A stretch of DNA of 64,000 nt from Candidatus Rokuibacteriota bacterium (GTDB lineage Bacteria; Methylomirabilota; Methylomirabilia; Rokubacteriales; CSP1-6), in assembly GCA_003220435.1 (NCBI GenBank), contig QHSL01000005.1:5993-69992 (forward strand). The letters run 5' to 3'. The position numbers and the translations under genes were made by a program. The stretch's first letter is position 1; each line of letters starts with the position of its first letter. Shown piece after piece: positions 13,614 through 49,409 of the stretch. A model generated the notes under the pieces. The model saw only the letters and a list, made by a program, of their open reading frames with translations, did no database searches and was not told the origin of the DNA.

Positions 13614-14318
13614 TCACACGCGCTCGGGCATCTTCTTTCTGCCGTTCTGGCTCGAGAACCACCAGCCGAGCGCCACCAGCACAACCGCTGGGACCAGCGG
13701 CAGCACGTCGAACAGATCGAGGCCGGGCGCCCCGGGATCGAACCAGCGCGCGAGGCTCTTGTCCTTCAGGATCATCTCGCCGGCGACGTAGCCGAGGATC
13801 CCGCCGCCGAGCCATATGATCCACGCGAAGCGGTTCATCAGGGTGGCGAGGAGGCCGCTGCCCCACACGACGATCGGCAACGAGAGCGCGATGCCGAAGA
13901 CGACCAGGATCAGGTTGCCGTGGGCCGCGGCCGCGACGGCCAGCACGTTGTCGAGGCTCATGACGGCGTCGGCGATGATGATGATCCAGACCGCCTCGCG
14001 GAGCGAGCCGCCCTGGCGGACGTGTCCCTCGGCGCCGGTCTCCTTGTGGACGAGCTTGAACGCGATCCAGAGCAGCGCCAGGCCGCCGAGGAGCTGGAGG
14101 AGCGGAATCCTGAGCAGATAGGTTGCGATCGCGATGAACGCCAGCCGGAGCCCGACCGCGCCCACCGTTCCCCAGATCCGCCCCCAGATCTGTTGCCGCT
14201 GGGGCAGGGTGCGGACCGCCAGCGCGATGACGAGCGCGTTGTCGCCGGCGAGCGTGAGGTCGATAACGACGATCCCGACGACCCGCATCCAGAACTCGGG
14301 ATCCATGAGAAACATCAT
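13614..14318 (-). CDS. TerC family integral membrane protein
   Basis: A 234-residue multi-pass membrane protein. It has the TerC/YjbE signature with acidic residues inside helices: VVIDLTLAGDNALVIALAV near the N-terminus and the repeat IIIADAVMSLDNVLAVAAAA in the middle. Family members export manganese or other metals and affect tellurite resistance. The protein ends in a basic tail. The ATG at 14318 lies 3 bases after the stop of a 31-codon ORF, so it is probably translationally coupled; a second ATG at 14306 is possible. No Mn riboswitch (yybP-ykoY type) was recognised upstream. Confidence 0.88.
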   Translation of the reverse strand: MMFLMDPEFWMRVVGIVVIDLTLAGDNALVIALAVRTLPQRQQIWGRIWGTVGAVGLRLAFIAIATYLLRIPLLQLLGGLALLWIAFKLVHKETGAEGHVRQGGSLREAVWIIIIADAVMSLDNVLAVAAAAHGNLILVVFGIALSLPIVVWGSGLLATLMNRFAWIIWLGGGILGYVAGEMILKDKSLARWFDPGAPGLDLFDVLPLVPAVVLVALGWWFSSQNGRKKMPERV

Positions 14319-14321
14319 ATG

Positions 14322-14417
14322 TCACTCGACCAGCGCCTTGACGATCGCGACCAGGAGGCGCCCCACGACGATGAGCGCGACGGCGATCGCCAGGCCTTCG
14401 TAGCGATTGATAGTCAT
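14322..14417 (-). CDS. Small membrane peptide upstream of TerC (31 aa)
   Basis: A 31-codon ORF. It begins ATG with GGGGAG 8 bases upstream, encodes MTINRYEG followed by one hydrophobic segment (LAIAVALIVVGRLLVAIV, about residues 9-26) and ends KALVE. The stop is 3 bases before the TerC start. A good ribosome-binding site, a single predicted membrane helix and tight coupling to an integral membrane transporter suggest a real small subunit or regulator. No homolog is recalled. Confidence 0.6.
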   Translation of the reverse strand: MTINRYEGLAIAVALIVVGRLLVAIVKALVE

Positions 14418-14498
14418 CTCGAGTCTCCCCTTGGAGCGAACGGACGCAGCTCGCCGCCTGACGGCGGCGCGGTTCAGGAGACGAACGGGATGACGAAG
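14418..14498. other. Short intergenic gap
   Basis: Eighty-one bases between the small peptide start and the end of the next minus-strand gene. Apart from the ribosome-binding site of the peptide (from about 14426) I see no clear hairpin terminator or promoter. Confidence 0.4.
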
Positions 14499-14822
14499 CT
14501 AGTGGGCTTCGGAGGTCTGCGCGCGGCCCGAGGAGGGCAGGTGGGCGAGCCGTATGTACGCGTGCCACTCGTCGTCGAGTGGGCGGCGAGCCTCCAGCAG
14601 CCGAGGCGTGACCTGACGCTCCGGCGTGGACTGCTCGGTGCGGGCCTGGAGCGTCACGCGCGCGGTACCGAAGGCGCGTCTGCCTCGAGCCTCGCGGCGG
14701 ATGTGAATCGACTCCTCGATCTCGGAGTCGTCGGCCTCGAACTCGAAGGCGCCCGGCAGCGGCGTGGCGAGGTCGAACGACAGCCACGCGAGCAGCAGGA
14801 CAAAGATCCGCCGCGTCCTCAT
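14499..14822 (-). CDS. Hypothetical secreted protein
   Basis: A 107-residue protein of unknown function. It opens MRTRRIFVLLLAWLSFDLA, a plausible signal peptide, followed by an acidic stretch (FEFEADDSEIEESI, about 26-39) and a basic remainder. No domain is recognised. I chose the ATG at 14822 because TAGAAT lies 7 bases upstream and the signal peptide begins there; an earlier in-frame GTG (14867) would bury the signal. It is followed by the TerC group on the same strand after 81 bases. Confidence 0.6.
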   Translation of the reverse strand: MRTRRIFVLLLAWLSFDLATPLPGAFEFEADDSEIEESIHIRREARGRRAFGTARVTLQARTEQSTPERQVTPRLLEARRPLDDEWHAYIRLAHLPSSGRAQTSEAH

Positions 14823-14829
14823 GGTGTGG

Positions 14830-14835
14830 ATTCTA
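14830..14835 (-). promoter_or_regulatory. -10 box of the secreted hypothetical gene, leaderless spacing
   Basis: On the minus strand TAGAAT ends 7 bases before the ATG at 14822, with no Shine-Dalgarno site between. Confidence 0.45.
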
Positions 14836-14877
14836 CCAGGAGGCCGCCGAAGACTTGCGAAGCCCACGGCGGACCAA

Positions 14878-16467
14878 TCAGGGGCACCCCGGCAGCTTGA
14901 AGCTGCCGATCCGCGTCCGCCACTGCGTGCCGCGCGTCGTATAGTACTCGCCGGTGTACCAGAACGTGCAATCGTCGGCGGGATCGACGCTCATCGCGCT
15001 GTAGTCGCCCCAACGGTTACTGCCGCTCTGGGGAGCGCTGCCGGCGACCAGCGTCGCCTCCGCCTGGAGCGTGCCGGGCGGGTCCGTCGCCGGGCGCGTG
15101 GCGTAGCGCAGCGAGGGGAACACCGCGGTCGACGGACTGCCGGTCTGCCCGCTGATGCTGTGGCCGAGCGCCATGTTCCCGAATCGGTCCATGCCGATCG
15201 ATCCCATCCAGCGGTGCTCCCCACCGGGCGCCTGCGTGCCTTCCTGATGGAGGGACCAGCCGGCGCCACCGTTGCGGACCTCGTACCAACGAATGCCGGC
15301 ACGGTCGCCGCCGACGTCGATCGTGAAGTTCGCGACGAGCGTCTGATGCTCGCCGAAGTTGCGATAGGCCAGCGGCCACATCGGCCACTCCGACACCGCG
15401 TCGACGCGCTGGACGGCGAGCGGCTGCGGGATGCAGTTGAGGTGGAAGAACCCGCAGACGGTGTAGGTGTACGGAGTGACGTCGAGCGCGGCGATGCGCG
15501 TGAAGGTCGCGCTGGTCGGCGTCGTCCAGTCGACGTGCAGCTCGAAGATCTCCAGCCGGTCGCTGCCGCCATGGAACACGTCGTCCTTGAACGTGTAGAA
15601 CAGGCCAGGCGCGCCGTCGGGCGGTGGGGTGGCGCCGTTCACGACCGCGGGCATCAGGAAGTTCGTCTCGCCCGTGAAGCGCACGAACGAGGCGGCGAGC
15701 CCGCTCAGCATCCTCGTCCGTTCGAGGGCGTAGGCGCTATAGCTGCTCTCGTTGCTGCCGACGTAGTAGGCGTCCGGCCAGACGCCGATCTTGAAGTAGT
15801 CCGGGAACTCGGGAAAGACGAACTCGTAGAGGTCATACGCGCCGAGCGCGCTCGACGTTTGCGAGACCGCCACGCAGATGCCGTCGGCGAAATTCGCCCT
15901 GAACTGCGCCAGGATCCACCGATCGGCCAGCACGTCGTAGACGACGACCGGATCGCCGCCCGTGCTGTTCGCGCAGCCGCCGCCGGGCCACAGGTCGTTC
16001 AGCTGAACCGGCCCATGCAGCAGGTTGCCGCTCTTGTCGTAGACGGCCATGAACGTCGCGTTGACGAGCTGGACGTACTCCGTGAGCCCGACCGCGCCGA
16101 TCGGATCCGGCGGCGTCACCGACGAGAGGTTCGACGTGCCGTCGAAGCTGACGAGGGGCGGCGGGGCGAGCTCGTTGTTGGCGACCCCGGACCGCAGCAG
16201 CGGATCGGCGGGCCCCGGAATGTTCGGCGCCGGCGCGCCGCCGCCGGCCAGCGGGTTGATACGAGGCTTCATGTCTCGATTGGGCTGCGCGACCGGCTGT
16301 CGGAGCGGGAGATCGCGCACCGGGCGGCGCGGCTGAGGCGTGACGGGAGCGCCCACGAAGGGTCCCTCGATCTGCGGGCTCGCCGACACCGCGAAGCCTC
16401 CGGGTTGGCCCGGGAGGAGCCCGACCAGCAGCAGGACGGCGCCGCTCAGAGCGCGCGACATCCTCAT
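14878..16467 (-). CDS. Large secreted protein of unknown function
   Basis: A 529-residue protein with a signal peptide (MRMSRALSGAVLLLVGLLPG), a proline-rich stretch to about residue 70, and then a domain with repeated Trp/Tyr/Asp-rich strands. Examples are the segments VTPPDPIGAVGLTEYVQLVN, DRWILAQF and PDYFKIGVWPDAYYVG. Spaced strand motifs of this kind suggest a beta-propeller or other all-beta surface domain, similar in feel to extracellular proteins of soil bacteria; no enzyme motif is seen. The C-terminus ends in FKLPGCP. Its ATG overlaps the stop of the upstream TPP-enzyme gene (ATGA), so the two are co-translated, an odd pairing. Confidence 0.75.
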   Translation of the reverse strand: MRMSRALSGAVLLLVGLLPGQPGGFAVSASPQIEGPFVGAPVTPQPRRPVRDLPLRQPVAQPNRDMKPRINPLAGGGAPAPNIPGPADPLLRSGVANNELAPPPLVSFDGTSNLSSVTPPDPIGAVGLTEYVQLVNATFMAVYDKSGNLLHGPVQLNDLWPGGGCANSTGGDPVVVYDVLADRWILAQFRANFADGICVAVSQTSSALGAYDLYEFVFPEFPDYFKIGVWPDAYYVGSNESSYSAYALERTRMLSGLAASFVRFTGETNFLMPAVVNGATPPPDGAPGLFYTFKDDVFHGGSDRLEIFELHVDWTTPTSATFTRIAALDVTPYTYTVCGFFHLNCIPQPLAVQRVDAVSEWPMWPLAYRNFGEHQTLVANFTIDVGGDRAGIRWYEVRNGGAGWSLHQEGTQAPGGEHRWMGSIGMDRFGNMALGHSISGQTGSPSTAVFPSLRYATRPATDPPGTLQAEATLVAGSAPQSGSNRWGDYSAMSVDPADDCTFWYTGEYYTTRGTQWRTRIGSFKLPGCP

Positions 16468-49271: not shown

Positions 49272-49279
49272 CCGCGTTG

Positions 49280-49369
49280 GCGTCGTGGGGGGAGGTTTCC
49301 TGAGAACCGGGTGCGGCCCGGGACCCCTCGAACCTGCACTGGGTAATTCCAGCGAAGGGAACACGACGA
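49280..49369 (+). ncRNA. TPP riboswitch (THI element)
   Basis: The conserved core is easy to read: CTGAGA at about 49310-49315, then ACCGGG...CCCGGG, GAACCTG and the TAATTCCAGCGAAGGGA segment. The P1 stem pairs CGTCGTG (49281-49287) with CACGACG (49362-49368). It binds thiamine pyrophosphate and controls the downstream thi genes. An intrinsic terminator follows within 10 bases, so control is probably at transcription. Confidence 0.95.
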
Positions 49370-49376
49370 CGATCAG

Positions 49377-49409
49377 CGGCCGCACCCGTGAAGGGGCGCG
49401 GCCGTTTTT
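49377..49409 (+). terminator. Intrinsic terminator of the TPP riboswitch
   Basis: A GC-rich hairpin (CGGCCGC 49377-49383 pairing with GCGGCCG 49398-49404, plus CCC/GGG inside) is followed by TTTTT at 49405-49409, 4 bases before the thiS ATG. High TPP should favour termination. The possible thiS ribosome-binding site (AAGGGG, 49391-49396) lies inside the hairpin. Confidence 0.85.

Follow-up and report, generated by a model that had tools for sequence, protein, structure and literature searches.

To our knowledge, few partners or controls of TerC-type exporters are known besides the Mn riboswitch. For other transporters, small associated membrane proteins are familiar, such as AcrZ, a one-helix accessory of AcrB, and KdpF. 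Leaders that control the gene behind them are familiar as well: in the SecM layout, the leader opens RNA that masks the next gene. CutF and CruR (DUF2946) are exported copper-sensing upstream ORFs (PMC9973294, PMC9426467), and for CutF a stem-loop is described that hides the ribosome-binding site of the next gene and is opened by the nascent leader (PMC9973294). Arrest at a stop codon by a short C-terminal motif is also documented, and in the NSP-stop, NAP-stop and DGMK-stop arrest peptides the stop codon is, certainly or most likely, in the A site at the stall (PMC10987492). In the TerC family itself, a Mn riboswitch controls meeY, and both MeeF and MeeY have been connected with the export of proteins and their loading with Mn; neither a small partner ORF nor a leader protein is mentioned in the available part of that report, and the term "small protein" occurs 0 times in its main text (PMC10550928).

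The locus presented here belongs to a Candidatus Rokuibacteriota genome of 5.4 Mb and was analyzed within a window of 64,000 nucleotides, that is, the whole stretch of DNA under study. On the minus strand, a leader gene, a small ORF and terC follow one another (Table 1), a layout that is best read, by analogy, as CutF/SecM-like. As in CutF and CruR, a short exported leader heads a metal-related operon (PMC9973294, PMC9426467), and an RNA structure hiding the next ribosome-binding site is found in the form of a predicted helix supported by permutation tests. Unlike in those systems, an [E/D]DH motif is conserved at the stop codon of the leader, and a mini membrane protein stands between leader and transporter. 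The exported leader with its short conserved C-terminal motif also resembles SecM, VemP, MifM and the NSP-, NAP- and DGMK-stop peptides, whereas SecM-class arrest peptides control Sec/YidC genes and here it is mostly ion-transporter genes that follow. In the accessible text of PMC10987492, [E/D]DH-stop is not among the stop-codon arrest motifs that we found described. The downstream gene is of the same family as YjbE, MeeF and MeeY, and the product of the small ORF resembles AcrZ and KdpF in being a single short helix that goes with a transporter, with no shared sequence family found. No published account of this leader and mini-protein system was recognized in the literature searched, parts of which were accessible.

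We think it rather probable that leader, 31-aa membrane protein and TerC are encoded in one operon with coupled translation, in which the ribosome on the leader opens the helix and the peptide serves as a transporter accessory.

Table 1. Features of the leader, small ORF and terC locus in window coordinates.
Feature	Position	Strand	Basis and remarks
TAGAAT, -10-like element	14830..14835	-	7 nt before leader ATG
Leader protein of 107 aa with hydrophobic N-terminus, variable tail and SEAH-stop C-terminus	14499..14822	-	ORF, family comparison
Masking helix, 5' strand	14476..14494	-	predicted fold, permutation tests; starts at the fifth nt after the leader stop
Inner hairpin CGCCGCC/GGCGGCG	14452..14469	-	predicted fold
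Shine-Dalgarno-like GGGGAG of small ORF	14425..14430	-	sequence
Masking helix, 3' strand	14413..14429	-	predicted fold, permutation tests; covers most of Shine-Dalgarno and AUG
Small ORF: 31-aa single-helix membrane protein	14322..14417	-	conserved coding frame; ATG at 14417, TGA end at 14322
terC, YjbE subfamily	13614..14318	-	ATG at 14318; Pfam TerC E 2.8e-46; TIGR03717 212 bits vs cut-off 134.8

The small membrane protein and its conservation

The small ORF encodes the 31-aa product MTINRYEGLAIAVALIVVGRLLVAIVKALVE and is separated from terC by a CAT spacer. This agrees with a sequence-only reading of the window, which had described a 31-residue ORF ending 3 bases before the TerC start and encoding one membrane helix; a single hydrophobic helix is supported. 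The same reading had given the ORF a strong ribosome-binding site of its own, and a strong Shine-Dalgarno-like site is indeed there, since GGGGAG lies 7 nt upstream of the ATG, but it is base-paired in the predicted RNA fold, and its use would depend on the leader gene that the reading had omitted. The peptide was also thought to be coupled to TerC. The tight spacing with terC is confirmed; a dedicated TerC partner it is not, because its relatives precede other ion-transporter genes, as described below. In our opinion, the earlier interpretation was half right.

The TIGR03717 score of the TerC protein exceeds the curated cut-off and places it in the YjbE subfamily. Its nearest named relatives, at most 90% identical, come from metagenome genomes of Candidatus Rokuibacteriota or Rokubacteria. 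The genome also has a second TerC paralogue, which is 60% identical, has no such peptide and lies, by eye, behind the end of a TctA-like gene. Peptide-less TerC genes (L002 in G000:C14, L096, L097, L101, L103, L105 and L107-L109) were seen by eye directly behind what resembles the end of a gene for a TctA-type transporter.

The TerC search kept 80 relatives, 10 of which are Rokubacteria loci (L003-L012), and at each of these 10 a frame of 31 aa ends 2-11 nt 5' of terC; at the 70 loci from outside Rokubacteria, inspection by eye of ORFs 20-60 aa in length whose end is close to the match start gave no similar peptide. A profile search at E 0.01 found the peptide in 21 of 57 family genomes and in 22 of 95 phylum genomes, with one match per genome, and TerC is the next gene at all 22 places of the phylum search. 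Between the members of seven sister pairs, which are roughly independent, codons 3-31 show 48 synonymous and 12 nonsynonymous differences (two more distant non-sister pairs, with 14/6 and 8/5 synonymous/nonsynonymous differences, were left out). Pooled over 136 pairs of 17 peptide sequences, in which related sequences are counted repeatedly, pN/pS is 0.41, and the same pooling gives 0.85 and 2.62 for the other two reading frames of the small ORF. As judged from these comparisons, purifying selection acts on the amino-acid sequence of the peptide, and the ORF is a real gene for a conserved membrane protein of soil Rokubacteria. The alignment of relatives that the sequence-only reading had recommended as a check comes out in its favor, with the frame kept and the differences mostly synonymous; wherever the locus is present, close relatives show neither the loss of frame nor the internal stop codons that it had named as contrary evidence. 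The genus counts nine genomes with the present one, of which one is without the peptide (G008, 88% complete), and its sole TerC is 58% identical and paralogue-like.

No described family accommodates the peptide so far. For the peptide of the window, neither Pfam nor NCBIfam gave a match at E up to 1, and two peptides of the family gave none in Pfam at E up to 5. KdpF and other named small-membrane-protein families were considered and set aside, with no model match in Pfam or NCBIfam. The single PDB match is weak (E 2.1). When peptide and TerC were folded as one read-through chain, the mean pLDDT was 72.8; the peptide formed a low-confidence helix with block values of 53-67, and because of these values we make no claim of docking between the two.

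The position of the ORF leaves room for the explanation that its translation merely hands ribosomes to terC, with a product that does nothing itself. The start of terC lies 2-11 nt beyond the small ORF or overlaps its stop: here the distance is 3 nt, and in some relatives a GTG start of terC overlaps the small-ORF stop by 4 nt. Moreover, two genomes have unlike small ORFs in the same slot between leader and TerC (G066, locus L181, 33 aa; G028, locus L187, 63 aa), each with one hydrophobic stretch, as a pure relay would allow. Selection on the peptide sequence and the recurrence of homologous peptides before other transporters speak against such a relay, and we consider it improbable. The slot may instead take different mini membrane proteins.

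The leader and its complementary RNA

Upstream of the small ORF lies a leader gene with related frames directly upstream at all 21 TerC-linked loci checked, and also in G031. Its relatives were found in 46 of 95 phylum genomes by a profile search at E 0.01, from which three weak places (G067, G002:C578 and G013:C56) were left out of the locus set. Searches of the leader against Pfam, NCBIfam and PDB found no family relative; the Pfam scan returned three stray matches with E 0.045-0.062, each for one member. No leader match was obtained in the 26 genomes of other groups that were reached through the loci, in a search run without positive control. A TAnAAT element lies 5-7 nt 5' of the chosen start in 15 of the 21 TerC-linked leaders (2000 shuffles gave a mean of 0.017 and a maximum of 1), the starts having been chosen by a script that favors ATG and a length near 106. 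Such a -10-like element just 5' of the ATG suggests that the transcript is leaderless.

The leaders form a family with a conserved N-terminal segment, a variable, low-complexity middle and a sharply conserved end. Among 62 C-termini (L217, L218, L219, L224, the second L177 copy and L245 being excluded), H occupies position -1 in 51, D position -2 in 50, and E or D position -3 in 59; 50 end in [E/D][D/A](P)H, and we write the family motif as [E/D]DH-stop. Entropy is 1.0-1.2 bits in the last three residues and at least 2.2 bits at positions -4 to -15. By the features tested, the leader does not belong to the CutF/DUF2946 family: none of 25 leaders scanned against Pfam matched DUF2946, CxxC or CxxxC occurs in 0 of 62, and PP lies within the last 15 residues of 23 of 62, so that the CutF-like combination of a Cys-based metal motif and PP is not found.

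The 24 nt 3' of the leader stop are complementary to the Shine-Dalgarno sequence and start codon of the small ORF. Across genera, both strands of this predicted helix vary and complementarity is kept, that is, they covary. For seven genera, the true pairing is within the best 7 of 5040 permutations, and with three genera of near-identical 5' strand pooled, leaving five leader groups, it is first of 120. A wider test used 52 leader loci, cut to 22 by similarity, with next-gene starts picked by eye from ORF lists; it excluded L182, L214, L216, L226 and L228 (next start unclear), L217 and L218 (contig end), L219 (internal stop), L224 (which runs into another gene), the second L177 copy and L240-L245. 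At these 22 dissimilar loci, the mean energy of the own pairing is -19.1 versus -15.8 when permuted, and 0 of 100000 permutations are as good; slid windows at the leader loci give means of -11.3 to -13.3. The own pairing is within the best five partners at 12 of the 22 loci. With the TerC loci excluded, 1203 of 100000 permutations do as well as the own pairing, so the support for complementarity at non-TerC loci is modest. The helix is weak or absent at HflK, CNNM and response-regulator loci. In a small control with crude gene calls, made up of 17 ordinary co-directional gene pairs that come from 11 sources, own and permuted energies are -15.8 and -15.6 (p 0.40). Pairing is stronger at the leader loci than in this control (p 0.023). 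We infer that the helix forms in cells.

A helix of this kind could also act without the protein. RNA thermometers typically have long helices that mask a start, and a Mn riboswitch often controls this TerC subfamily, as its NCBIfam name R_switched_YjbE indicates. The RNA would then be the sensor, for metal or temperature, and the gene upstream incidental. No Rfam riboswitch is found at the locus, though, either at the gathering score in the scan of the window or within 14250-14900 at E up to 5, and the helix varies freely in sequence between genera and starts right after a coding stop codon; we hold an RNA sensor to be very improbable. The Mn riboswitch (RF00080, yybP-ykoY) matches in 2 of 57 family genomes, on contigs other than that of the peptide locus. 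Elsewhere in the window, at 49278-49378 on the plus strand, a TPP riboswitch reaches the gathering score with 56.4 bits.

Under the operon reading given at the outset, the transcript would start at the leader ATG and the leader would be translated first. The RNA 3' of the leader would pair with the Shine-Dalgarno sequence and start of the small ORF and keep them closed. A ribosome at the [E/D]DH-stop, or pausing on it, would cover the 5' strand, the helix would open upon termination of the leader, and the freed site would allow the small ORF to be translated. terC would then probably be read by coupled re-initiation, because its start lies 3 nt past the small-ORF stop or overlaps it, and its translation would in this manner be coupled to that of the small ORF.

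Pausing is dispensable in a plainer version, in which the leader gene encodes some ordinary small protein for export, produced in parallel with the transporter; its normal termination opens the helix, and there is neither stalling nor sensing. A terminating ribosome suffices without arrest, and the leader has a conserved N-terminal segment of its own and could act outside the membrane. Against this version stands the sharp conservation of the last three residues next to a variable low-complexity middle, as in stop-codon arrest peptides, together with the occurrence of the same leader family before unrelated genes. We give it a somewhat less than even chance.

Leader and peptide at other ion-transport loci

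Behind the relatives of the leader lie genes for TerC, a CitMHS_2 transporter, NhaA, a Na/H exchanger, TrkA-N, Band_7 (HflK by eye), CNNM-CorC and a universal stress protein, among others. For naming, eight downstream proteins were run against Pfam, of which seven matched and the eighth, of 114 aa, did not; the remainder were named by eye. A membrane peptide of 29-32 aa comes first behind the leader at many of these loci, and relatives of the peptide also precede NhaA, CitMHS_2 and Na/H-exchanger genes. Compared profile to profile, TerC-linked and other peptides match with a probability of 93%, and two shuffling schemes gave 200 column-shuffled controls each, all of which score lower. On this sequence evidence, the peptide is not TerC-specific.

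With the joint peptide profile, 35 of 95 phylum genomes yield 36 places, with the leader upstream at 36 of 36, most of which had entered the profile via leader or TerC loci; at the only independent ones (G076, G022 and G074), the leader is upstream in 3 of 3. By eye, G074 and G076 have no same-strand transporter behind the peptide, and in G024 the ORF behind it resembles a sensor kinase.

Some leader loci are built differently. Before HflK-like (Band_7) genes (L176, L180, L188, L189 and L210), there is no peptide, and the masking helix is weak or absent. A protein of 114-124 aa starting near MAKVGRF or MGKVGRF recurs behind leaders (L171, L172, L177, L185 and L222); one of this type was tested and had no Pfam match, and in L171 it is followed by a cation-antiporter-like ORF. 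In L173 (G011:C55 near 68816), the 318-aa ORF behind a second leader copy starts MTLNRYEGL, resembling a remnant of the peptide start fused to another gene.

By analogy with small transporter-associated proteins, the peptide is most likely an accessory subunit or stabilizer of cation transporters. A bolder proposal makes the leaders nascent-chain sensors of a new class, which would stall at [E/D]DH-stop when export or the cations outside change and would control ion-transport loci of Rokubacteria (TerC, Na+/H+ antiporters, TrkA-N, CNNM, HflK), and at many of these loci the 30-aa membrane protein that they share would be a common transporter subunit. We put it forward tentatively and regard it as rather unlikely, if possible.

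The leader with its RNA switch, common to several ion-transport loci, is in our opinion a more interesting object than the peptide alone. Cation transporters of several kinds are here associated with a single leader family and a single family of mini membrane proteins, and the pairing of leader and peptide offers a route of control plus a candidate shared transporter subunit. Few exported-leader switches are known, and the system would add to them a leader family that is free of CxxC and carries its motif directly at the stop codon.
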